Assembly (NCBI RefSeq): GCF_030863805.1
Contig: NZ_CP132957.1
Coordinates: 3,844,001-3,908,000, forward strand
Length of the DNA: 64,000 bases
Source: Kineothrix sp. MB12-C1
GTDB lineage: Bacteria > Bacillota > Clostridia > Lachnospirales > Lachnospiraceae
Direction of reading: 5' to 3'
A program made the translations under genes and the position numbers. This document shows positions 1 to 58,217 of this stretch, piece after piece (within the stretch, counting starts at the first letter, position 1; each line of letters opens with the position of its first letter). Under the pieces are notes generated by a model, which ran no database searches, was not told the DNA's origin, and worked only from the letters and a program-made list of their open reading frames with translations.

Positions 1-2277
1 TATGATGAAGTGAAGCAGACGTCCACTTCTTATTTGTGTGCATTGGAGATAGGAGCAAAAGAGCCTGTGAAGACGGCGCTTGATTTCGGGGATAATGCCA
101 CTGTTATGAGAATGACGGCGAATGCAGACGGTACCCTGCAAGCACTTATCAATACTTATGTGTATGAAGAAGGAGCCTCCATTGGCGGAGAAGAGATAGA
201 AGCATTGGATGGAGAAGAGGGTTTGGCTGAGGCTGAAGATGCGAGCGAAGCCGTGGAAGATAGCGAAGAAACGGAAGCGGTGGTTGAAGAAGGAACTGAG
301 AGTGAGAATGATGAGGCTGCAGAAGTAGAAGCATCCAATTCAGTGACCATTATGGATGGCGGTACTACGATTGTTTCCGAAAGTAGTATGCCGGGAAACG
401 CTTATGTGGATGATTATATGATGCCTACCTCTCAAAAGACGGAGATTTGTAAGATTTCTACGGATGGTACTATAATGTCCACCATGGATATTACCTCAGT
501 CTTCGGAGATGAAGAGGTCTATTTCAATAATATGGAGACCGATAATGATGGAAATATCTATCTTGCGTATGATCAGGCAATATGGGTCATCGATCAGGAA
601 GGTAATGAACTTTTCCAAGTCGAAATTGACAGCTGGGTGAATAATATGTTCGTCACAAAAGACGGAGTGGTAATGATTACCTATTACGGTCAGGAAAGCA
701 TGGAAGTATGCCCTATCGATGTAGCGAAGAAAGGTCTTGGGGATGCTGTCAGCAGTATGATGGTTTCCCAGTATGGCAATTATATATTCGGCAGAAGTGT
801 AGAAACAGATGTTTTATACAGCGTAGATAATATTTTGTACTCTTATAACATGGGAGATGCAGCACCTGTAGAAATATTGAATTGGATTGATTGTGATATT
901 AACAGTAATGAACTTGTTGTATTCCATGCCCTTGATGATGGAAGAATTCTTACAATTAGTTCTTTTTGGGAGGAGGATACTTCTAATATCGAACTCACTT
1001 ATCTGACAAAGAAGAAGGGGTCAGAGGTGCCTGAGAAGAAAATTATGTCTTTGGCTACCATGTATCTCGATTACGAGATGAGAAAGCAAGTAATTGATTT
1101 TAATAAGAAAAGTCAGGAATATAGAATTGAAGTAAAGGAATATATGAGCGCTTCTAACGATTATGAAGCCGGATTGACGCAATTAAATACAGATATTATA
1201 AGCGGTAATGCTCCGGATATGGTGGATCTTTCCAACGGTTCCATGAAGCAATATATTGCAAAGGGTATTTTGGAGGATTTATCTCCTTTCCTTGAAAAAG
1301 ATGCTGAATTAAAACGTGAAGACTATTTGGAAAACGTGCTAAAAGCCTATGAAGTGGATGGGAAACTTTACGCAATACCTCCTTATTTTTACTTGCAGAC
1401 GGTAGTTGCGAAAACTGCCGATGTAGGCGAAAGAACGAGTATCTCTATGGCAGAGTTGATTGATATGGTAAAAAATCTGCCGGAAGGTACTGAGTTATAT
1501 GAATATGGAACGAAGAGCACGATTTTAATGTATAACACCATGATGAACATGGATGAATATGTAGATTGGTCTACCGGAGAGTGTAAGTTCAATGGAGAAG
1601 AATTTATTAATGCACTGGAATTTGCTAATTATTTCGACGAAAACTACAATTGGGATGAGGAGAGACCGAGCACACCTGAGCGTCTGCAGAATGGAACACT
1701 TCTCATGTTGAATACGGGTATTAGTGCAGTAACTGATTATCAGATGACAAAATTATTGTTTAAAGAGCCGATTACTTTTATCGGATTCCCTACGAGTAAG
1801 GAAAACGGTTCCTTCTTATCAGGAACAGGCGGTGTGCTTGGAATGAGTGCTAAGTCGAAGAATAAGGAAGGTGTATGGGAGTTTCTTCGCATCGCGATTA
1901 CGAAGGAATCGCAGGAGAAAAGCGATAATAGAGGAAGATGGGGATTCCCGATTATGAAATCGGCATTAGAGCTACAGTTTACTGAGGCGATGAAGGAAGA
2001 TTATTATGAAGATGCTGATGGCAATCAAATAAAGCAGCCGAAGACATCGTGGAGTTATGATGGCTATGATATGGAGATTTATGCAGCTACAGAGGAAGAG
2101 ATAAAAGAAGTAAGAAGTCTGATTGAAAGTATAGATACGCAATATCAGTATGATGAGCAGATGAATGCCATTATTTCGGAGGAAGCGGCAGCCTTTTTCG
2201 AAGGTCAGAAGAATGCGAAGGAAGTTGCGGATATCATTCAGAGCAGAGTGCAGATTTATGTAAATGAGAATAGGTAA
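1..2277 (+). CDS. Extracellular solute-binding protein, 5'-truncated by window edge
   Basis: This is a family-1-type solute-binding protein of a carbohydrate ABC importer, expected outside the membrane. The frame is open to base 1 and there is no signal peptide or lipobox, so the true start lies upstream; the GTG at 10 is probably internal. The N-terminal half (to about nt 1030) looks like a PQQ/propeller-like sensor region with short strands and DGxI/DxxGNIY turns, interrupted by a strongly acidic Glu/Ala-rich linker at about nt 172-345. The C-terminal half (from about nt 1040) has the solute-binding fold, with the paralogue motif NKxxxxYRI and a helical tail ending VQIYVNENR. The same architecture occurs at 2306-4606 and 9667-11907. 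The ligand cannot be read from sequence. Confidence 0.85.
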   Translation, partial: YDEVKQTSTSYLCALEIGAKEPVKTALDFGDNATVMRMTANADGTLQALINTYVYEEGASIGGEEIEALDGEEGLAEAEDASEAVEDSEETEAVVEEGTESENDEAAEVEASNSVTIMDGGTTIVSESSMPGNAYVDDYMMPTSQKTEICKISTDGTIMSTMDITSVFGDEEVYFNNMETDNDGNIYLAYDQAIWVIDQEGNELFQVEIDSWVNNMFVTKDGVVMITYYGQESMEVCPIDVAKKGLGDAVSSMMVSQYGNYIFGRSVETDVLYSVDNILYSYNMGDAAPVEILNWIDCDINSNELVVFHALDDGRILTISSFWEEDTSNIELTYLTKKKGSEVPEKKIMSLATMYLDYEMRKQVIDFNKKSQEYRIEVKEYMSASNDYEAGLTQLNTDIISGNAPDMVDLSNGSMKQYIAKGILEDLSPFLEKDAELKREDYLENVLKAYEVDGKLYAIPPYFYLQTVVAKTADVGERTSISMAELIDMVKNLPEGTELYEYGTKSTILMYNTMMNMDEYVDWSTGECKFNGEEFINALEFANYFDENYNWDEERPSTPERLQNGTLLMLNTGISAVTDYQMTKLLFKEPITFIGFPTSKENGSFLSGTGGVLGMSAKSKNKEGVWEFLRIAITKESQEKSDNRGRWGFPIMKSALELQFTEAMKEDYYEDADGNQIKQPKTSWSYDGYDMEIYAATEEEIKEVRSLIESIDTQYQYDEQMNAIISEEAAAFFEGQKNAKEVADIIQSRVQIYVNENR

Positions 2278-2305
2278 TATAAAAAGTATAAGGGGGAAAG
2301 AGAGT

Positions 2306-4606
2306 ATGAATAAGAAAAAAAGGGTAAAAGTTGCAGCATCAGTAGCGATGAGCTTGCTGCTTGCCGGATGTGGGAAGGGCACAGATGGCATGCAGGATGC
2401 TGCAGCGATACAAGAGCAAAGTGAAGAGTATGTATATGAGGCAGAATATCAGTCGCTTACGATGCCTGATTACTACACGAGCAGTATGATCTTTGGAGAG
2501 GATGAAAAGATTTATTTTGTCGGAAATAGCGAAGCCGGGGAAAGCAGATTGTTTTCTATGGAAATCGGGGATATGGAGCCGCAAGCTATTCCGGTAGAAA
2601 TAAAGGAGCAGGCATACATCTCTTGTATCGGTACGGATGTAGAAGGGAATCTCGTGTTAGCAATCCCTGCCTATAAAGAGCAAACAGCTCAGGAAGACGG
2701 TGAATCTACAGATGCTGATAGTGCGCCCGAGGAAGTAGGCAGTATACTTGAGAGCGTTGAGCTTCGGAAGTTATCGACCGAAGGTCAAGTTCTGGAATCT
2801 GTGGATGTCTCTAATTTTTTCAATAAAATTAAGGATTTTTATATACAGGGTACATTATCCGATAAGGATGGGAATTATTATGTGAATGCCAATCAGACAG
2901 TATATGTAATAAGACCGACCGGCGAGATGTTATGTGAGATTCCCGCAAAAACTTATATTCAGAATATGTTTCGGATACGGGATGGGCGGATTATCGTAGG
3001 TTTTTATGACAGTACGGGCTGGCGCTTACAGGAAGTGGATTTAGCCGGTAAATCTCTGGTGGATGTGAATAGTTCGATTCCTTTTGATTATGGAACCTAT
3101 CAAGGCGGTAAAGATGTTGATCTCGTTTATACTCAGGAGACCAAGTTATACACTTGTAATCTGACGGATCAGGAACCGATAGAAGTTCTGAATTGGCTGG
3201 ATAGTGATATTAACAGCACTAGTTTACAAAGTGTGCAAATGCTTGGAGACGGCAGAATAGCAGCCATTACGATAGACTATATGTCAGAGTCACCGGAGGC
3301 GGAACTCGTAGTGCTGACAAAGAAGAATCGTTCACAAGTACAGGAGAAGACGGTACTGACTTACGGTACGATTTATGTGCCTTATTTTTTGAACAAGGAC
3401 ATTGTCGCTTTTAACAAACAAAGTGATAAATACCGGATTGAAGTGAAGCTGTACGGGGATGACAGTATGGACTTTGAGGAAAGAACTGCTCTTTTATCGG
3501 CAGATCTTGCGGCAGGTAAAGGACCGGATATGATCGATATGGTCTATGGATTCCTCACCTTGGAGCAATTGGTCTCTATGGGAATCGCGGAAGACCTAAC
3601 GCCGTATTTGGAAGGGGATACAGGGATAAAAAGGGAAGAATATCTTGAAAATGTGATGGATGTTTACTCCGTAGATGGTAAGATTTATGCCATTATGCCT
3701 TGTTTTAGCGTAGGGACGCTTATCGGTAAAGTGTCTGATGTAGGAAACGGAAGTTCATGGTCTATTGATGATATGATAAAGTTCATTGATAGTAAGCCCG
3801 CCGATGTGGAAATTCTGCCTTTTAATACGAAGGATTCCATCCTACAGCTTATGTGTTCGATGAATTTAGGTGTGTTTGTAGATGCGGAGACAGGCGTATG
3901 TGATTTTACAGGGGAAGAATTCTTGAGGATTCTGGAGTTTGCTAACCGCTTTCCCAAGGAAATGGCAGAATCTTCCGGTGCGTCGAGTCAAATTGACCGG
4001 TTAAGAAGCGGTCAACTTTTGATGGAAGGAACAAGAATCACCGATGTGACCCAATATCAGATGTATGAGTACATGTTTGGAGAAGAAGTGAATTTCATCG
4101 GTTATCCCACGACAGAAGGAAGTGGTTCTGTAATAAATCCGAATGGAACAACGGCAGCAATGAATGCTAAAGCTGAAAATAAAGAGGGAATATGGGAGTT
4201 TCTGCGGTTCAACTTGTTGCAGGAAAGGCAGGAAAACCTGGAATCAGCAAACGGTGGATTTCCAATTAGTAAGTCAGCTTTGGAAAAACAATTTGCAAAA
4301 GATGCAGAAGCGGAATATTATGAAGATACGGATGGAACGAAAAAAGAAGTATCAAAAGTTACTTGGTCCTGGGGAGACGGGGATTCTCTTGTTACCGTAG
4401 ACGTATATGCTGCAACGCAAGAACAGATTGGACGTATGAAGGCAATTATCGAGGCGGCCAGGGGAATAGAAAACATAAAGGATGAAAAAATGTTTTCTAT
4501 TATTAGTGAGGAAGCACAATCTTATTTTGAAGGTCAAAAAAGTGCGCAAGAAACTGCTTCTTTGATTCAAAACAGGGTGCAGACTTATATTAATGAAACG
4601 AGATAG
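2306..4606 (+). CDS. Solute-binding lipoprotein with N-terminal propeller-like domain
   Basis: Paralogue of the gene before it, 766 aa. I chose ATG 2306 because AGGGGGAAAG lies just upstream and the protein then begins MNKKKRVKVAAS followed by the lipobox LLLAGC, a type II signal peptide with lipidated Cys at about residue 20. After a short acidic linker the N-terminal half carries propeller-like turns and the family signature LNWLDSDINS. The C-terminal half is a family-1 solute-binding domain (NKQSDKYRIEVKLY, then PDMIDM). It is followed after 14 nt by the permease genes and so is the most likely cognate receptor. At about 770 aa it is nearly twice the usual 400-450 aa of this family. Confidence 0.88.
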   Translation: MNKKKRVKVAASVAMSLLLAGCGKGTDGMQDAAAIQEQSEEYVYEAEYQSLTMPDYYTSSMIFGEDEKIYFVGNSEAGESRLFSMEIGDMEPQAIPVEIKEQAYISCIGTDVEGNLVLAIPAYKEQTAQEDGESTDADSAPEEVGSILESVELRKLSTEGQVLESVDVSNFFNKIKDFYIQGTLSDKDGNYYVNANQTVYVIRPTGEMLCEIPAKTYIQNMFRIRDGRIIVGFYDSTGWRLQEVDLAGKSLVDVNSSIPFDYGTYQGGKDVDLVYTQETKLYTCNLTDQEPIEVLNWLDSDINSTSLQSVQMLGDGRIAAITIDYMSESPEAELVVLTKKNRSQVQEKTVLTYGTIYVPYFLNKDIVAFNKQSDKYRIEVKLYGDDSMDFEERTALLSADLAAGKGPDMIDMVYGFLTLEQLVSMGIAEDLTPYLEGDTGIKREEYLENVMDVYSVDGKIYAIMPCFSVGTLIGKVSDVGNGSSWSIDDMIKFIDSKPADVEILPFNTKDSILQLMCSMNLGVFVDAETGVCDFTGEEFLRILEFANRFPKEMAESSGASSQIDRLRSGQLLMEGTRITDVTQYQMYEYMFGEEVNFIGYPTTEGSGSVINPNGTTAAMNAKAENKEGIWEFLRFNLLQERQENLESANGGFPISKSALEKQFAKDAEAEYYEDTDGTKKEVSKVTWSWGDGDSLVTVDVYAATQEQIGRMKAIIEAARGIENIKDEKMFSIISEEAQSYFEGQKSAQETASLIQNRVQTYINETR

Positions 4607-4620
4607 AAGGTAAAAGTATC

Positions 4621-5568
4621 GTGAAGAAGGAATTAATGGTTCCGAGAAAGAAGAAAATAAAGGATAAAGAGCAGAAGGTAAGTAAAAAGAAAGGTGGCAT
4701 ACAGAAAAAGGACGGACGTGGAAGGAAAATCTCTTTGATTTTCCTCTCGTTTAGCCTTCTTGGTGTGCTGGTGTTCTTTGTGATTCCTTTTTTAGTAGTA
4801 GTATATTATTCGTTAGTGGACAACCCTATTAACCATAGCTTTGTATTTCTTGATAACTTTGTTAATGTGTTCGGCAATGGGGCGTTTAAACAGGCGGCAT
4901 CCAATACGCTGAAGTTCTCAGCAATTGCGGTGCCTCTTGCTGTGCTGCTCGCGTTGTTACTCGCGATGCTTCTCGACAGTAAGATACCGTTTCGGAGTCA
5001 GTTTCGAACGTTTTTCCTTACACCAATGATGGTGCCGATTGCGTCTATCGTATTGATATGGCAGGTGCTGTTTCACTATAACGGTATGGTGAATGATATT
5101 ATTGGGCTATTTGGAGCAGGTAAAGTTGACTGGCTGAAATCGGATTATGCACAGATTGTAATTATTATCTTATTCTTATGGAAGAACTTAGGCTATAATA
5201 TGATTTTATTTATGGCGGCCCTTTCCAGCATCCCGAAGGATATTCTGGAGGTGGCAGTATTGGAAAGCGCTAAGCCGTGGCAGATCTTTTTCCATATTAA
5301 GTTGAGATATTTGTCCTCCACCTTATTGTTCGTTACGATTATGTCGCTCATTAATTCTTTTAAGGTGTTTAGGGAAATATACTTATTGACCGGAGATTAT
5401 CCTTATAATACGCTATATATGATGCAACACTTTATGAACAATACATTCCGGTCATTAGATTATCAGAAATTGTCGGCTGCCGCCATCATGATGTCGGTCG
5501 TTATGGTAATTTTAATTGGAATTCTCTTCCTTACGGAAAATTATTTCGGAAAGGATGTGGAAGGATGA
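4621..5568 (+). CDS. Carbohydrate ABC transporter permease, MalF/UgpA type
   Basis: Integral membrane subunit of a sugar-type ABC importer, 315 aa. A very basic N-terminus (about 40 residues rich in Lys/Arg) precedes six predicted membrane segments, the first at about residues 38-62. The cytoplasmic EAA loop that docks the ATPase is present at about residues 205-230 but deviates from consensus (EVAVLESAKPWQIF; the usual DGA is ESA). The start is GTG 4621 with AGAAGG upstream; ATG 4636 is a possible alternative. It overlaps the next permease by 4 nt (ATGA), so the two are translationally coupled. No ATPase gene is nearby; importers of this class often share an MsmX-type ATPase encoded elsewhere. 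Confidence 0.92.
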   Translation: MKKELMVPRKKKIKDKEQKVSKKKGGIQKKDGRGRKISLIFLSFSLLGVLVFFVIPFLVVVYYSLVDNPINHSFVFLDNFVNVFGNGAFKQAASNTLKFSAIAVPLAVLLALLLAMLLDSKIPFRSQFRTFFLTPMMVPIASIVLIWQVLFHYNGMVNDIIGLFGAGKVDWLKSDYAQIVIIILFLWKNLGYNMILFMAALSSIPKDILEVAVLESAKPWQIFFHIKLRYLSSTLLFVTIMSLINSFKVFREIYLLTGDYPYNTLYMMQHFMNNTFRSLDYQKLSAAAIMMSVVMVILIGILFLTENYFGKDVEG

Positions 5569-13835: not shown

Positions 13836-13868
13836 AAAGGGTCTTTTTCAAGGCCCTTTTTCATTTTA
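13836..13868 (+). terminator. Intrinsic terminator after tRNA-Gly
   Basis: Stem AAAGGGTC/GGCCCTTT with an 8-nt loop (one T-G wobble), beginning 3 nt after the tRNA and followed by TTTCATTTTATT. Confidence 0.8.
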
Positions 13869-13871
13869 TTC

Positions 13872-13915
13872 GCACTATTCATACGCGAAGAATCTCCAAG
13901 CAGATTCTTTATTTT
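13872..13915 (+). repeat. 3' half of a structured intergenic repeat element
   Basis: Aligns without gaps to 56936-56979. The last 32 nt differ at only four central positions: CGCGAAGAATCT and ATTCTTTATTTT are identical at both sites and flank a variable 8-nt centre. The upstream 12 nt share GCACT. Only the 3' portion of the longer element seen at 56894-56979 is present here. Confidence 0.7.
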
Positions 13916-44341: not shown

Positions 44342-45193
44342 ATGATGAGAATAAAAAGAGCAAGACCGGGAGAAGTGTTACGAAGGAATTGCTCTCAGAA
44401 TATAGAATACCTGACGTTTCCCATACTGGAGGAAACTGAGATTGTGGATCATCTTTTTTCCACCCGTATCGGTGGAGCGAGCGAAGGAATCTTTCAGTCT
44501 ATGAATCTAAGTTATACCCGGGGGGATAAGAAAGAAGCGGTGGATGAGAACTTCAGAAGGATTGCGGGGGTGCTCGGAAGGGAAGTGGAGGATTTTGTCT
44601 GTTCCGACCAAACCCACACGACCAATATCAGAAAGGTAACAGAGAAGGATAGAGGGAAGGGCGTTCTTAGTGAGAAAGATTATGCAGAGATAGATGGGTT
44701 GATCACAGATGAACCAGGTCTGGTACTATCCACCTTTTATGCGGACTGCGTCCCTTTGTATTTTGTAGATCCTGTTCACCGGGCAATCGGGCTTTCGCAC
44801 TCCGGCTGGCGAGGAACTGTAAGCCGTATGGGTGTCTGTACGTTGAGTGCTATGAAAGAAGAGTACGGAACGAAAGCGGAGGATGTGATAGTTGCTATCG
44901 GCCCTTCTATTTGCGGTGAATGTTATGAAGTGAGCGAAGATGTGGTATTAGAATTCCAGCGCGAATTCAAAGATGTTAACTTGGAATTCCTGTATGAAAA
45001 GGGAGAAGGAAAGTATTTGTTAGATTTGTGGAAGGCTAATTATCGAATATTGATAGAAGGCGGCGTTCTTCCTGAACATATAAGCGTTACCGATATATGT
45101 ACTTGCTGCAATCCGGATTACTTATTTTCCCACCGCGCAAGCCTTGGAAAACGCGGCAATCTGGGAGCCTTTATGAGCTTGCGTAATGCTTAA
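44342..45193 (+). CDS. pgeF: Peptidoglycan editing factor PgeF (YlmD, laccase-domain)
   Basis: 283 aa. DUF152/multicopper-oxidoreductase-like family; E. coli YfiH/PgeF removes L-Ser-containing muropeptide precursors. Metal ligands are in CSDQTHTTNI (His about 87), ADCVPLYF (Cys about 139) and HSGWRGTVSRMG (His about 157). Also GPSICGECYEV. ATG 44342 and 44345 are both possible starts. Confidence 0.93.
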   Translation: MMRIKRARPGEVLRRNCSQNIEYLTFPILEETEIVDHLFSTRIGGASEGIFQSMNLSYTRGDKKEAVDENFRRIAGVLGREVEDFVCSDQTHTTNIRKVTEKDRGKGVLSEKDYAEIDGLITDEPGLVLSTFYADCVPLYFVDPVHRAIGLSHSGWRGTVSRMGVCTLSAMKEEYGTKAEDVIVAIGPSICGECYEVSEDVVLEFQREFKDVNLEFLYEKGEGKYLLDLWKANYRILIEGGVLPEHISVTDICTCCNPDYLFSHRASLGKRGNLGAFMSLRNA

Positions 45194-45249
45194 GAAAATC
45201 TTAATTAATTTCCTCTATATCCCTTAAATATTATATGATTAGATAAAGA

Positions 45250-45290
45250 CAACTATATATTAGTGATTAAAAATCACTAATATATAGTTG
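45250..45290. repeat. Perfect 18-bp inverted repeat
   Basis: Arms 45250-45267 and 45273-45290 are exact reverse complements around the 5-nt loop TAAAA (left arm starts CAACTATATATT). No T-tract follows, so it is not a typical terminator. It directly precedes the structured element at 45296. Confidence 0.9.
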
Positions 45291-45295
45291 CCTCC

Positions 45296-45385
45296 AGTGG
45301 ATGCACACTCGCACGAAGTAGTATTTTGTCGCAAAGCGACCGTGCTCGGTGCAGACGGCGAATTAATCGCCGTCTATATATTACT
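45296..45385 (+). repeat. Structured intergenic repeat element, copy 1
   Basis: Begins TGGATGCACA like the copy at 56894 (TGGATGCGCA). Outer complementary segments TGCA/TGCA and GCACG/CGTGC enclose a perfect hairpin GTCGC/GCGAC (loop AAA), and a second perfect hairpin GACGGCGA/TCGCCGTC (loop ATTAA) closes the element before TATATATT. AACAGTTAC, the arm of the palindromic repeat, follows at 45387-45395. Confidence 0.65.
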
Positions 45386-45430
45386 CAACAGTTACAATAA
45401 CGGTAAGGAAGGATACGGTAAGGTAAGCAT

Positions 45431-46135
45431 ATGGCGAATATACTCGTATGTGACGATGACAAAGAAATTGTGGATGCAATTGAAATATACCTGCTTCAGG
45501 AAGGTTATCAGGTATTGAAGGCCTATGATGGAGAGCAGGCAATCCATATGTTGAGAGAGCATAACGTTCATTTGCTCATTATTGATATTATGATGCCGAA
45601 GCTGGATGGTATTCATGCGACTTTGAAGATAAGGGAATATAACAGCCTTCCCATCATTATTTTATCTGCAAAATCAGAGGATGCAGACAAGATCCTTGGG
45701 CTCAATATCGGTGCGGATGACTATGTTACAAAGCCTTTTAACCCGTTGGAACTTGTGGCAAGAGTGAAGTCTAACCTGCGCCGCTATACTACACTCGGTA
45801 ATTTAAATAAAGAAAATAATGAGCTGTTTCGTGCAGGTGGCCTATGTATTAACGACGATACGAAAGAAGTGACGGTGGATGGGGAAATCGTGAAACTGAC
45901 CCCCATAGAATACAATATTTTGCTGCTTCTTGTAAAAAATCAGGGCAGGGTATTTTCGATCGACCAGATTTATGAAAGTATATGGAATGAAGAGGCGATA
46001 GGTGCGGATAACACAGTGGCTGTCCATATCAGACATATCCGGGAAAAAATAGAAATCAATCCGAAGGAACCCCGCTATCTGAAAGTAGTATGGGGCGTCG
46101 GATATAAAGTCGAGAAGCAGTCAGATGGATTATGA
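45431..46135 (+). CDS. OmpR/PhoB-type response regulator
   Basis: 234 aa. Receiver domain with the acidic pair DDD (8-10), phospho-acceptor Asp52 in LLIIDIMMPKLDG and KPF switch Lys (TKPFNPLEL). C-terminal winged-helix DNA-binding domain (about 135-230) with TPIEYNILLLLVKNQGRVFS. It overlaps the kinase gene by 11 nt, so the two are a pair. Target genes are not evident. Confidence 0.95.
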   Translation: MANILVCDDDKEIVDAIEIYLLQEGYQVLKAYDGEQAIHMLREHNVHLLIIDIMMPKLDGIHATLKIREYNSLPIIILSAKSEDADKILGLNIGADDYVTKPFNPLELVARVKSNLRRYTTLGNLNKENNELFRAGGLCINDDTKEVTVDGEIVKLTPIEYNILLLLVKNQGRVFSIDQIYESIWNEEAIGADNTVAVHIRHIREKIEINPKEPRYLKVVWGVGYKVEKQSDGL

Positions 46136-53440: not shown

Positions 53441-54454
53441 ATGGCGAATGTAAGTATTATTGGTGCCGGAAGTTGGGGAACGGCTTTAGCAGCATTGCTT
53501 CATAAAAACGGACATAAGGTTACTGTATGGTCGATTGTGGAATCAGAAGTTGAGATGCTGAATAGGGAAAGAGAACATAAGGATAAGCTCCCGGGTGTGA
53601 AACTGCCGGAGGATATGATATTTACCACAGATCTTGCAGAGGCGGTAAAAGGGAAAGATGTACTCGTTCTTGCGGTACCTTCGCCTTATACGAGAAGCAC
53701 CTCACACATGTTAAAAGAATATGTGGAAGAAGGGCAGATTATCGTCAATGTAGCAAAAGGGATCGAAGAGGATACCCTTCTTACCTTATCCCAGATTATC
53801 GAAGAAGAGATTCCGCAGGCTTGTGTCTGCGTACTTTCCGGTCCCTCTCATGCAGAGGAGGTCGGCAAGGGAATCCCTACCACGATTGTTGTTGGCTCTC
53901 ATAAGAAGGAAACAGCGGAATATTTACAGAACCTATTTATGAATGAGGTGTTCCGTGTATATATTAGTCCGGATGTACTCGGCATTGAGCTTGGAGCTGC
54001 GTTAAAGAATGTAGTGGCTCTTGCAGCAGGTATTGCAGATGGACTTGGATATGGAGATAATACGAAGGCGGCTCTTATTACGAGAGGAATTACAGAAATC
54101 TCCAGACTTGGTATTGCTATGGGCGGCCGCTTTGAGACTTTCAGCGGTCTGACAGGAATCGGCGATTTGATTGTTACTTGTGCATCCATGCATTCGAGAA
54201 ATAGAAGAGCCGGTATTTTGATTGGAAAAGGATATACGATGGAAGAGGCTATGAAGGAAGTGAAGATGGTCGTTGAAGGCGTGTATTCTGCAAAAGCGGC
54301 TATAAGTCTTGCGAAGAAGTACGATGTACAGCTTCCGATTATCGAACAGGTCAATCAGGTATTATTTGAAGGAAAGCCGGCGGATGCTGCAGTAAAAGAG
54401 CTGATGATAAGAGATAAGAAGCTGGAAAACTCTTCGCTGGAAGGGTGGGCGTAG
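53441..54454 (+). CDS. gpsA: Glycerol-3-phosphate dehydrogenase (NAD(P)+)
   Basis: 337 aa from ATG 53441, with GGAGG 7 nt upstream. N-terminal Rossmann motif SIIGAGSWGTALA; VLAVPSPYTRS and NVAKGIE follow; catalytic Lys in GAALKNVVALAAG (about 190) and GLTGIGDLIVTCAS. Reduces dihydroxyacetone phosphate for phospholipid synthesis and functions with PlsY immediately upstream. Confidence 0.97.
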   Translation: MANVSIIGAGSWGTALAALLHKNGHKVTVWSIVESEVEMLNREREHKDKLPGVKLPEDMIFTTDLAEAVKGKDVLVLAVPSPYTRSTSHMLKEYVEEGQIIVNVAKGIEEDTLLTLSQIIEEEIPQACVCVLSGPSHAEEVGKGIPTTIVVGSHKKETAEYLQNLFMNEVFRVYISPDVLGIELGAALKNVVALAAGIADGLGYGDNTKAALITRGITEISRLGIAMGGRFETFSGLTGIGDLIVTCASMHSRNRRAGILIGKGYTMEEAMKEVKMVVEGVYSAKAAISLAKKYDVQLPIIEQVNQVLFEGKPADAAVKELMIRDKKLENSSLEGWA

Positions 54455-54457
54455 CAT

Positions 54458-55279
54458 ATGAGCGGACAGAACAAAGGATTTGCCGGCACTTCGGAATATG
54501 TAGCTTCCGAACAATTGATGGCGAGCGTAAATGTAGCGGTAGCGCTGCAAAAGCCACTGTTAATTAAAGGAGAGCCCGGAACCGGTAAGACGATGCTCGC
54601 AGAGGCGGTTGCGAAGTCGCTTGGGAAGAAATTAATTATATGGAATATTAAGTCTACGACAAAGGCACAGGATGGTTTATATGTATACGATACGATTCAG
54701 CGCCTTTATGATGGACAATTCGGGGAAGAAGGGGTAGATGATATTTCCCGTTATATCAAGCTCGGTAAGTTAGGAGAAGCCTTCGATAGCGAAGAACAAG
54801 TTGTTCTATTAATCGATGAAATCGATAAGGCGGATCTGGAGTTTCCTAATGATTTGTTATGGGAATTGGATCAAATGGAATTCTATATCCATGAGACGAA
54901 GAGAACGGTGAAAGCGAAACAACGGCCAATTGTTATTGTTACGTCCAACGCGGAGAAGGAATTGCCGGATGCCTTTTTAAGAAGATGTATCTTTCACTAT
55001 ATCGATTTCCCGGATGAAGAGTTAATGGAAGAAATCGTAAAAACACATTTCCCGGATATCGAAGATAACCTGTTAAAAAATGCGATGGAAGTATTCTATT
55101 GGGTTCGCTCCATTAGGGATGTCCGTAAAAAACCGAGTACCTCGGAGTTAATCGATTGGATCAATGCATTGCGTATCGGAGGTATTCCTTTGGATACCTT
55201 ACGAAATAAACTTCCGTTTCTCGGTGTGATCGTAAAGAAGGATGAGGATCTTGTTACTGTTAAGGAACGTGTGAATTAA
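54458..55279 (+). CDS. MoxR-type AAA+ ATPase
   Basis: 273 aa. Walker A GEPGTGKTML (about 36-45), Walker B VVLLIDEIDKAD (about 112-123), sensor 1 VIVTSNAEKELPDAF and arginine-finger region LRRCIFHYIDFP. MoxR ATPases act with VWA-domain proteins to activate enzymes or remodel complexes. Follows gpsA by 3 nt and precedes its VWA partner by 31 nt. The client is unknown. Confidence 0.9.
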   Translation: MSGQNKGFAGTSEYVASEQLMASVNVAVALQKPLLIKGEPGTGKTMLAEAVAKSLGKKLIIWNIKSTTKAQDGLYVYDTIQRLYDGQFGEEGVDDISRYIKLGKLGEAFDSEEQVVLLIDEIDKADLEFPNDLLWELDQMEFYIHETKRTVKAKQRPIVIVTSNAEKELPDAFLRRCIFHYIDFPDEELMEEIVKTHFPDIEDNLLKNAMEVFYWVRSIRDVRKKPSTSELIDWINALRIGGIPLDTLRNKLPFLGVIVKKDEDLVTVKERVN

Positions 55280-55310
55280 TGAGAGTATAAAGGATACATG
55301 AGGGACTGAT

Positions 55311-56513
55311 ATGTTTGTCGAATTCTTTGATATATTAAAGGCGAAAGGACTTAAAGTTACCTTAAGCGAATGGTTGACGTTGCAGGAAGCCTTGGATAAA
55401 GGGCTGTGTAACAGCAGCTTGACCGAATTCTATTACGTTGCCCGAATGATATTGGTGAAAAGTGAAACCGAATACGATAAGTTCGATTTGGCATTTGAGG
55501 AATGCTTTAAAGGGATTACGTCGGATAATGAAATAACTGCTAATATGCTTAGATGGCTGGATAAATCCGATATGAATGAACTGTTTCACGAAGAAGAACG
55601 TCATCAGATGAATCAGTCAGAAGACTTACAAATCGATAAAGACGACGTAGAAGAGAAGTTCAAGCAGCGCCTTAAGGATCAAGACAGCGAGCATAACGGC
55701 GGCAGTTATTGGATCGGCACTATGGGGAAAACTTCTTTTGGCAATACGGGAGGCAATATCGGAGGAATTCGCGTCGGAGGAACTACCGGCTATCAATCGG
55801 CTTTTCAGGTAATCGGAGCCAGGAAGTACAGAGATTTTCGCGATGATAAAATTATCGATAACAGGCAGTTTCAACTGGCCCTTCGAAGACTTCGCCAATT
55901 CTCCACCAAGCTGGATATCCCGAAAACGGAGCTCGATATTGACGGCACCATCGATAAGACTTGCAATAATGGCGGCTGCCTGCAGATAGTAATGGAGAAA
56001 CCGAGGAAGAATTCGGTGAAGCTTTTGCTATTGATGGATTCCGGAGGAACGATGATTCCTTATACTAAATTATTGAATGAATTATTTCAATCGGTTCATA
56101 AATCCAATCATTATAAGGATGTGAAAACTTATTATTTTCACAACTGTATTTACAGTAAGCTATATAGAACACCGGAATGTGAGAATGGGGACTGGATTGA
56201 TACGGAATGGATGTTCCGGAATCTGGACAGCGATTATAAAGTGATTATTGTAGGCGATGCAGCGATGGCACCTGAGGAATTATATTCCGATACGGGTAAT
56301 TACAGGGGGCCTAACGGAGGTCTTTCGGGAATGGATTGGCTGCTTCTTATGAAGAAGAATTATAAAAAGATTGTCTGGATGAATCCTAAGATGGCATACG
56401 GACACGCACCTTGGAGAGAAGCGGAGACGGCGATTAAAAATCTGCTCCCTATGTATAAGCTTACGGTAGACGGATTGAATCAGGCGATGACATGTCTGAT
56501 GGTCAATAAATGA
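55311..56513 (+). CDS. VWA (CoxE-like) domain protein
   Basis: 400 aa, partner of the MoxR ATPase. The N-terminal 130 residues are helical. A Gly-rich patch (GKTSFGNTGGNIGG..., about 140-160) leads into the VWA-like domain (about 230-400). The metal-site motif normally DxSxS reads LMDSGGTM (about 240), i.e. D-S-G-G-T, and a later conserved Asp is in IVGDAAMAP. It ends with MNPKMAYGHAPW and a helical tail. Similar pairs are called CoxD/CoxE-like. Confidence 0.85.
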   Translation: MFVEFFDILKAKGLKVTLSEWLTLQEALDKGLCNSSLTEFYYVARMILVKSETEYDKFDLAFEECFKGITSDNEITANMLRWLDKSDMNELFHEEERHQMNQSEDLQIDKDDVEEKFKQRLKDQDSEHNGGSYWIGTMGKTSFGNTGGNIGGIRVGGTTGYQSAFQVIGARKYRDFRDDKIIDNRQFQLALRRLRQFSTKLDIPKTELDIDGTIDKTCNNGGCLQIVMEKPRKNSVKLLLLMDSGGTMIPYTKLLNELFQSVHKSNHYKDVKTYYFHNCIYSKLYRTPECENGDWIDTEWMFRNLDSDYKVIIVGDAAMAPEELYSDTGNYRGPNGGLSGMDWLLLMKKNYKKIVWMNPKMAYGHAPWREAETAIKNLLPMYKLTVDGLNQAMTCLMVNK

Positions 56514-56522
56514 AAACTGCTA

Positions 56523-56551
56523 TTGACAAGAAAAAAGAAGTGAGGTACAAT
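56523..56551 (+). promoter_or_regulatory. Promoter of the tyrS leader
   Basis: TTGACA, 17-nt spacer, TACAAT; start point expected near 56558. Confidence 0.85.
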
Positions 56552-56557
56552 GCAGGT

Positions 56558-56862
56558 AATTTAAGAGATAAAAGCGATGAACAGAATAAGTAGTGAGCAA
56601 GGATAACTTACAGAAAGTAACCGGTCGATGAGAGGTGCAAGGGAATTTGCTTATGAATACATCTGGGAGCTTCATAGCAGAAGAAAGTTTTCTAGAGATT
56701 TTTGGTAGGCTATGACGTGTTTCCCCGCGTTATGGAGGAGGAGTATCGCCGCTTGACAGTGGCCGTACTTGCGAAGGCAGATGATGTGAGTCATTTGTGA
56801 AATTAGGTGGTACCGCGGATTATTTCCGTCCTATTATGAGTTTTCATAGTAGGGCGGTTTTT
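56558..56862 (+). promoter_or_regulatory. Tyrosine T-box riboswitch
   Basis: Contains the T-box core AGGTGGTACCGCGG (about 56804-56817), stem I features (GCGATGAACAGAATAAGTAG at its 5' part) and a candidate specifier TAC in GAATACATCTGGG (about 56655), matching tyrosine. A terminator stem CCGTCCTA...TAGGGCGG followed by TTTTTT (56826-56862) competes with the antiterminator that includes the T-box sequence. Uncharged tRNA-Tyr should permit read-through into tyrS. Confidence 0.93.
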
Positions 56863-56863
56863 T

Positions 56864-56891
56864 ATGTAATAGAAAAAGTTTCCTATTACAT
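56864..56891. repeat. Hairpin after the T-box terminator
   Basis: ATGTAATAG/CTATTACAT, extended by AAA/TTT around a short loop with one bulge. It lies between the T-box terminator and the repeat element. Confidence 0.6.
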
Positions 56892-56893
56892 AA

Positions 56894-56979
56894 TAATGGA
56901 TGCGCAGTTGGCAAAGGAGAAAATAGCCGTAAACGGCACTGCTGGCGCGCGAAGAATCTGCGGGCACATTCTTTATTTT
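56894..56979 (+). repeat. Structured intergenic repeat element, copy 2
   Basis: Begins TGGATGCGCA, has an inner hairpin GCCG/CGGC (loop TAAA), complementary CAGT/ACTG and GCGC segments around it, and ends with a terminator-like hairpin AAGAAT/ATTCTT plus TATTTT. The last 44 nt align with 13872-13915; the 5' part aligns with 45296-45350. The last hairpin ends about 10 nt before the tyrS SD. Confidence 0.65.
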
Positions 56980-56996
56980 AAAAAAGGAGAAGAAAA

Positions 56997-58217
56997 ATGA
57001 CTATTTTTGATGAATTAAAGGCGAGAGGGCTTCTGGCTCAGCTTACCGATGAAGAGGAGATTAAGGAATTAATTAATAATGGAAAGGCAACTTTTTATAT
57101 CGGATTCGATCCGACGGCTGACAGCCTTCATGTAGGACACTTCATGGCACTTTGTCTTATGAAGAGATTACAGATGGCAGGAAATAAGCCAATAGCTCTT
57201 CTTGGCGGAGGGACGGGTATGATCGGAGACCCTTCGGGGAGAAGCGATATGCGTACGATGATGACGCCTGAGATTATTCAGCATAACTGCGATTGTTTCA
57301 AGGAACAAATGAGTAAATTTATTGATTTCTCCGAAGGGAAAGCCCTTATGGTGAACAATGCGGACTGGTTAATGGATCTGAATTACATCGAGATGCTCCG
57401 CGAAGTGGGTTCTCATTTCAGTGTAAATCGTATGCTTACGGCGGAATGCTACAAGCAGCGCATGGAGAAGGGACTTAGCTTCCTGGAATTCAACTACATG
57501 ATTATGCAAAGCTATGACTTCTACGTGTTATACCAAAAGTACGGCTGCAATATGCAGTTCGGAGGGGATGACCAGTGGAGCAATATGCTGGGAGGAACGG
57601 AACTTATCCGCCGGAAGTTAGGTAAGAATGCATATGCTATGACAATTACTCTGCTTCTTAACTCGGAAGGAAATAAGATGGGCAAAACACAAAAGGGTGC
57701 GGTATGGCTCGATCCGAATAAGACTACTCCTTTTGAATTCTTCCAGTATTGGAGAAATATAGCGGATGCGGATGTATTGAAATGTATTCGTATGCTTACC
57801 TTCCTGCCTCTTGAGGAAATCGAACAGATGGATCAATGGGAAGGAAGCCAGTTAAATAAGGCGAAAGAGATTCTTGCTTTTGAATTGACAAAGATGATTC
57901 ATGGAGAAGAGGAAGCGAATAAATCACTGGAAAGTGCACGTGCTTTATTTACAGACGGCAACGCGGCACAGATGCCTACAGTTGTTCTGAAAGAGGAAGA
58001 TTTTGAAGAAAACAAGATAGATATTTTATCGATGTTAGTTGCTTCCGGACTTGTAGCTTCTCGTTCCGAGGGACGCCGTGCAGTAGAACAGGGCGGCGTG
58101 ACTGCGGATGGAGAGAAGGTTGCAGATATTAAAGCGGTATTTGAGAAAGAGCAGCTTGCCGGAGATGGTATCGTATTAAAGCGCGGTAAGAAAAACTTTA
58201 AGAGAATTACTTGCTAA
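56997..58217 (+). CDS. tyrS: Tyrosyl-tRNA synthetase
   Basis: 406 aa. Class I synthetase: [17 protein letters not shown] (HIGH-type motif HVGH, about residue 45), GGDDQWSN (about 190) and KMGKTQKG (KMSKS-type motif, about 228). C-terminal S4 RNA-binding domain (about 340-406; [16 protein letters not shown]). AAAAAAGGAGAAG precedes the start. Controlled by the T-box upstream. Confidence 0.98.

Follow-up and report, generated by a model that had tools for sequence, protein, structure and literature searches.

The hairpins in the intergenic stretch at position 45296 of the window (the whole 64 kb of DNA analysed, part of a 3.94 Mb single-contig genome) raise the question of whether they form an RNA that acts on a neighbouring gene or belong to a piece of DNA that moves. 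The original prediction placed related hairpins at 45296 and 56894, and both sites are present with those hairpins. Its ranges located the sites correctly but set their starts too far downstream, as each element begins upstream with an AT-rich hairpin (45247-45293 and 56862-56893 respectively).

Anatomy of the element and its copies in the genome

Site 45296 proved to be the core of an interspersed element of ~130 nt at about 45250-45382, in which a long AT-rich hairpin (HP1) is joined through a linker to a folded core, with a final hairpin after it. The general build among copies is an AT-rich HP1, usually a mini-hairpin, the conserved core and the final hairpin. A covariance model of the 56-nt core, R1, was built from 10 copies, three from this genome (the window copy included) and seven from three other genomes. 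The features around 45296 are as follows.

44342..45193, + strand: upstream gene, multicopper polyphenol oxidase family (PF02578; Pfam)
45247..45293, + strand: HP1 of the subtype A element, long and AT-rich with loop AAA; conserved and covarying among 6 full copies
45299..45354, + strand: conserved core with outer stem, CUC/UCG internal loop, second stem, long 5' bulge and inner hairpin; R1 84 bits (training sequence), covariation
45354..45374, + strand: final hairpin, then TATATAT with no T-run after it; conserved in copies
45431..46135, + strand: downstream gene, response regulator with receiver and winged-helix output domains (Pfam); orthologues in relatives do not have the element before them

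Copies of subtype A, 45296 among them, carry TATATA at the ends, have no T-run and lie in either orientation. Alignment of the six full copies from this genome revealed sharp ends and paired changes in HP1. Over the part that aligns they match the window copy at 88-100% identity, and the DNA search that recovered them also gave three copies without the 5' part, one match to HP1 only and one to the final hairpin only, the other rows being opposite-strand or weak matches. The further copies that the original prediction called for were therefore found, six full and three shortened in this genome, with others in 44 of 200 genomes of the family.

An unfiltered R1 scan of the 64 kb ranked the three predicted sites first, second and third, with 84 bits (E 3e-16) for 45296, 17 bits (E 0.15) for 56894 and 9.1 bits (E 7.9) for 13872. 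The top score of 45296 is there by construction because it is a training sequence, and the match at 56894 taken alone is only suggestive. What ties in the 56894 copy is a sister copy elsewhere in the genome, to which it is 78% identical over 83 nt (E 5e-13) and which itself matches R1 with 34.7 bits (E 1e-5). The 56894 copy represents, in decayed form, a second subfamily that has another HP1 and a diverged core. Better-preserved sister copies of this subfamily score 34.7 and 35.8 bits (E about 1e-5), and its places in the genome often retain just HP1 and the first part of the core. The features of this second copy, and of the third site, are as follows.

56568..56836, + strand: T-box leader before tyrS, with terminator; the second copy lies behind that terminator (Rfam)
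56862..56893, + strand: HP1 of the second-subfamily element, directly after the T-run of the T-box terminator; common to further genome copies
56898..56950, + strand: diverged core of the second copy; R1 17 bits, E 0.15, sister copies E about 1e-5
56952..56973, + strand: final hairpin of the second copy, weak, then TTATTTT (from the sequence)
56997..58217, + strand: downstream gene tyrS, tyrosine--tRNA ligase (Pfam)
13866..13915, + strand: possible remnant behind a tRNA gene, a short hairpin, then a final hairpin resembling the one in the second copy; R1 not significant, 88% over 32 nt (E 2e-4)

The third site of the prediction, 13872, ranks third with R1 and carries a final hairpin like that of 56894, the two having 32 nt around this hairpin in common (88%, E 2e-4), but its R1 score is not significant (E 7.9) and the sequence makes it at best a remnant. 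Allowing up to one mismatch, the start motif occurs seven times in the window, against 6.65 expected. As a diagnostic on its own it was rejected, since 14 of its 25 exact matches in the whole genome are without the element's hairpins, which by inspection are present in the other 11 contexts. A separate observation on the assembly is that the contig start (about 1400-5200) repeats 3898100-3901900 (window about 54100-57900) at 96% with small indels, tyrS and the T-box included; this may be a circular overlap left untrimmed and not a genuine duplication.

Conservation of the fold and distribution of the element

Pairing was assessed in three alignments. The MAFFT alignment of R1 had 90.7% of cells paired and two-sided change in 5 of 15 pairs, with slid controls reaching 41.3%. 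An alignment of 91 cores (81 distinct), fitted to the R1 model, gave 92.8% and 10 of 15 pairs, the best slid control being 61.9%. Among 18 copies of genome G018 (18 of its 20 loci, with L174 and L182 left out, the structure read from one row and the inner hairpin not included) 97.5% of cells were paired and 16 of 32 pairs showed two-sided change, with 10 of 14 in HP1. Shuffles never reached the observed percentage paired, number of two-sided changes or covariation score in any of the three. Further pair types did not exceed shuffles in the R1 alignment (497/500) or the G018 copies (417/500), and in the 91-core alignment were reached by one of 500 shuffles. The paired stem changes noticed in the original prediction are thus accompanied by covariation beyond both shuffles and slid controls.

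The core is the most conserved part of the element and its unpaired bases are nearly fixed. In HP1 of the G018 copies one-sided changes are almost nil, a pattern that could arise from selection and equally from palindrome correction during replication. An attempt to identify the functional strand from wobble pairs was rejected, as the stems give opposite answers and the transcribed strand is not singled out: in the two outer core stems A-C exceeds G-T (33 versus 16 events, p 0.02), G-T exceeds A-C in the inner (16 versus 4) and final hairpins (20 versus 13), and HP1 is near even (86 to 101). In one locus (L284, around 4800-4930) part of the core is duplicated in a nested arrangement that looks like the product of template switching.

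Matches to R1 at E 0.01 or better were found in 44 of 200 genomes of the family Lachnospiraceae, the genome of the window included. A search at class level found four positive genomes out of 291, again with this genome among them and all of the same family; the 267 class genomes without a match came from groups not given by name. Both searches used stricter filters, by which weak matches are lost. The 28 R1 matches of G018 equal the number of candidates scored there. When 80 of at least 120 stretches from named genomes were searched, R1 matched every one of the 68 whose titles are of Firmicutes type (Butyrivibrio, Eisenbergiella, Mediterraneibacter, Coprococcus, Clostridium fessum, other Lachnospiraceae and the like) and one of the 12 others, weakly. 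In these searches the element is confined to a single family, Lachnospiraceae judging by the titles of the public records that match. Carriage by phages was considered and rejected; seven pattern matches in viral contigs, the best with an R1 score of 20.4 bits (E 0.03), were judged to be chance. No Rfam match at gathering score fell on the element in the window, nor did E-value scans of 45200-45450 and five loci give one, and literature searches among open-licence PubMed Central papers gave no description of it that was recognised. The element may be present, unnamed, in a survey of candidate microbiome RNAs (PMC8040213). G018 also carries a second dispersed repeat of ~190 nt (L225:1480-1685), unrelated to the element and present at eight further places with 91-97% identity.

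Empty sites and landing sites

The window copy at 45296 is absent before the response-regulator gene in all 14 same-genus loci examined, a comparison covering 14 of 15 relatives, two of which (L209, L212) have a non-adjacent upstream gene. The copy at the tyrS site is likewise absent in 14 of 14 loci of relatives, the T-box being visible in the shown stretch in six of them and one showing only some 40 nt upstream; in L246 the T-run of the T-box is followed by the tyrS start within about 50 nt. Two same-genus relatives (L236 and L237) have a different hairpin-rich stretch before tyrS. Absence was also found in another genus. G239 lacks the element at the two places that correspond to copies of G142, and carries a 98% copy at another site. 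At the first of these places the terminator is conserved and the element starts right after its T-run, with the downstream sequence also differing; the terminator that G239 has at the second place is a different one. Four copies from three species of one genus had only 111-156 nt in common across their 3 kb loci, and blocks of about 145 nt that are 99% alike lie at unrelated sites. G018 has no relatives for an empty-site comparison, as its genus holds that genome only.

These observations make it very probable that the elements move. The suggestion of a mobile miniature element is well supported by the dispersed copies and empty sites; an RNA processing or stability element and a read-through control gained no support here, though they may be side effects. 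A cis-acting RNA of a riboswitch-like, attenuator or stability type, retained because it acts on adjacent genes, would account for the conserved unpaired core bases and two-sided changes, for the positions in the leaders of tyrS and the response regulator gene and for the T-rich tail that follows the final hairpin in 109 of 146 elements. The absence from the corresponding leaders of relatives means that the element is not an ancestral leader RNA, and with the neighbours being unrelated genes, most copies lying behind a T-run, usually that of a terminator, and no Rfam match, such a role is distinctly unlikely.

Outside subtype A a T-run stands at the 5' foot of HP1 in 100 of 121 elements, compared with 6/121, 6/121, 8/121, 12/119 and 17/117 in displaced control windows, and a terminator-like hairpin ends at this foot in 79 of 121. 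The exceptions are 21 elements without a T-run by the test used and 42 without a terminator-like hairpin. The 121 remained from 162 alignment rows after removal of duplicates, of 10 loci that were subtype A or chance and of rows with <170 nt upstream or long N runs; a further 16 were left out because they failed the hairpin test, although several of them have an imperfect HP1. A survey of 42 loci, with the core found in 39, showed the upstream gene to be co-directional in 30 of 31 non-subtype-A loci (one place counted twice; simple ORF calls). The A-run after HP1 is complementary to the T-run of the landing site. Tandem copies behind the final hairpin of another element occur at L163, L180, L186 and L288. 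Subtype A is without a T-run and lies either way, so the terminator rule misses the very copy at 45296 from which the finding started. No clear target duplication was seen, T-runs lying on both sides and filled and empty sites being too diverged to fix the joints, and inspection gave no inverted ends, those of subtype A sharing only a few TATATA bases.

The association with terminators would also be expected if the element were itself a terminator, bidirectional or reinforced, that recombination and not a transposing enzyme carries from one terminator to another, and by inspection the mini-hairpin followed by a reverse-strand T-run does resemble a terminator. The blocks of ~145 nt, 99% alike at unrelated sites, and the clean absence at corresponding sites are both hard to obtain without an insertion mechanism, and this explanation is rated the least probable of those considered.

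Proposed mechanism and comparison with known systems

The preferred reading, held with some confidence, is a non-autonomous mobile element of 130-190 nt whose folded strand is recognised and which is mobilised in trans, perhaps by an IS200-like enzyme. A partner recognising the folded strand is likely because the middle is the most conserved part and its unpaired bases are nearly fixed; the moving enzyme would thus recognise a folded single strand with HP1, core and final hairpin. The T-run of the landing site would pair with the A-run after HP1, which recalls the guide pairing of IS200/IS605 elements. As the element would end in a T-run of its own, further copies could land behind it in tandem, and insertion behind terminators would avoid breaking genes. 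The leading candidate for an enzyme acting in trans would be an IS200-like Y1 transposase working on single-stranded DNA, because three of the four IS200-like elements in this genome have their left ends, by inspection, directly behind a hairpin with a T-run.

The mobilising enzyme was not found. A Y1 gene is present in eight of 14 copy-rich genomes and none was found in the other six, which could be explained by incomplete assemblies. The R1 core is absent from the loci of 29 Y1 matches (some overlapping) in these 14 genomes, and a Y1 gene beside the element was accordingly rejected. No ORF splitting the element was seen among seven five-prime-only and 42 three-prime-only core matches, which by inspection were judged to be diverged elements or chance, many lying in unrelated high-GC genomes. 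Nor was a parent transposon with the same ends present among the 29 Y1 loci or the ±90 nt contexts of the split-core matches.

Retrotransposition would give the element the character of a bacterial counterpart of SINEs. A transcript ending at its own terminator would carry a U-tail, which would anneal to the A-run opposite a terminator's T-run and be copied there by a reverse transcriptase acting in trans. This accounts for T-run landing in one orientation and for the T-run at the element's end. Five copies (L155, L158, L199, L106 and L444) start at or near the core start right after a T-run with the 3' half kept, three subtype A copies of this genome are without the 5' part, and the genome encodes the reverse transcriptase of a group II intron (RVT_1 and GIIM). 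Set against this, RVT_1 was found in nine of 16 genomes, eight above the curated cut-off, and not in the copy-rich G126, G205 and G216; a reverse transcriptase as universal partner was rejected on this distribution. Losses at the 3' end also occur, the final hairpin being flagged in 18 of 146 elements and by inspection truly missing or lost in two to four. The transcript is hypothetical, and subtype A is without a T-run. Retrotransposition is therefore considered improbable, and slightly more so its full form, a structured RNA of 130-190 nt with its own terminator that is reverse-transcribed in trans into terminator T-runs across Lachnospiraceae. In G126, G205 and G216 neither Y1 nor RVT_1 was found.

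A mobile element that spans the family, mostly lands behind terminators and keeps its fold from genus to genus would offer a new model for the movement of short non-coding DNA in common gut bacteria. The element puts hairpins into gene leaders (here those of tyrS and the response regulator), and the conserved core is a concrete handle for finding the enzyme that recognises it.

In the tests made, the element lacked features by which MITEs, REPs and group II introns are defined. It is probably best classed as a structured, mostly terminator-targeting, non-autonomous mobile element that behaves like MITEs or REPs without, at the places examined, inverted ends, a parent transposon or an adjacent Y1 gene. 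With MITEs it shares being short, non-autonomous and mobile, with no ORF seen between its halves. REP and REPIN sequences with their RAYT (Y1) transposases are short multicopy intergenic hairpins for which recognition as a single strand has been proposed. The element differs from them in its three to four hairpins, in landing behind terminators and in the absence of the core at the 29 Y1 matches, no Y1 gene flanked by the element being found in the 14 genomes. Bacterial MITEs, as characterised in PMC10969869, resemble it in being short, non-coding, intergenic and presumably moved in trans; it differs in that no inverted ends, clear target duplication or parent were found, and in that the middle is its conserved part. 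The pneumococcal SPRITE and BOX repeats (PMC10969869) are similar in lying between genes, in being structured or resembling terminators, and in forming clusters with one copy inserted into another; they belong to another lineage and are likened to it by description, not by sequence.

Group IIC introns land behind terminators. Insertion of these introns at DNA stem-loops is described in PMC10190682, where the intron studied is from Eubacterium rectale; the element is far shorter and has no ribozyme match in Rfam scans, only the T-box and tRNA reaching gathering scores in the window and no intron ribozyme appearing in the E-value scans. The single RVT_1 match of this genome (L423:1048-2364) is the reverse transcriptase of a group II intron and also has a maturase domain. 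The IS200-like elements of the genome share with the element a landing place behind a hairpin and T-run (three of four) and differ in carrying a transposase gene and no R1 core. They comprise two pairs of identical IS200-like Y1 elements (L116, L123, L130 and L135 of this genome, G000).
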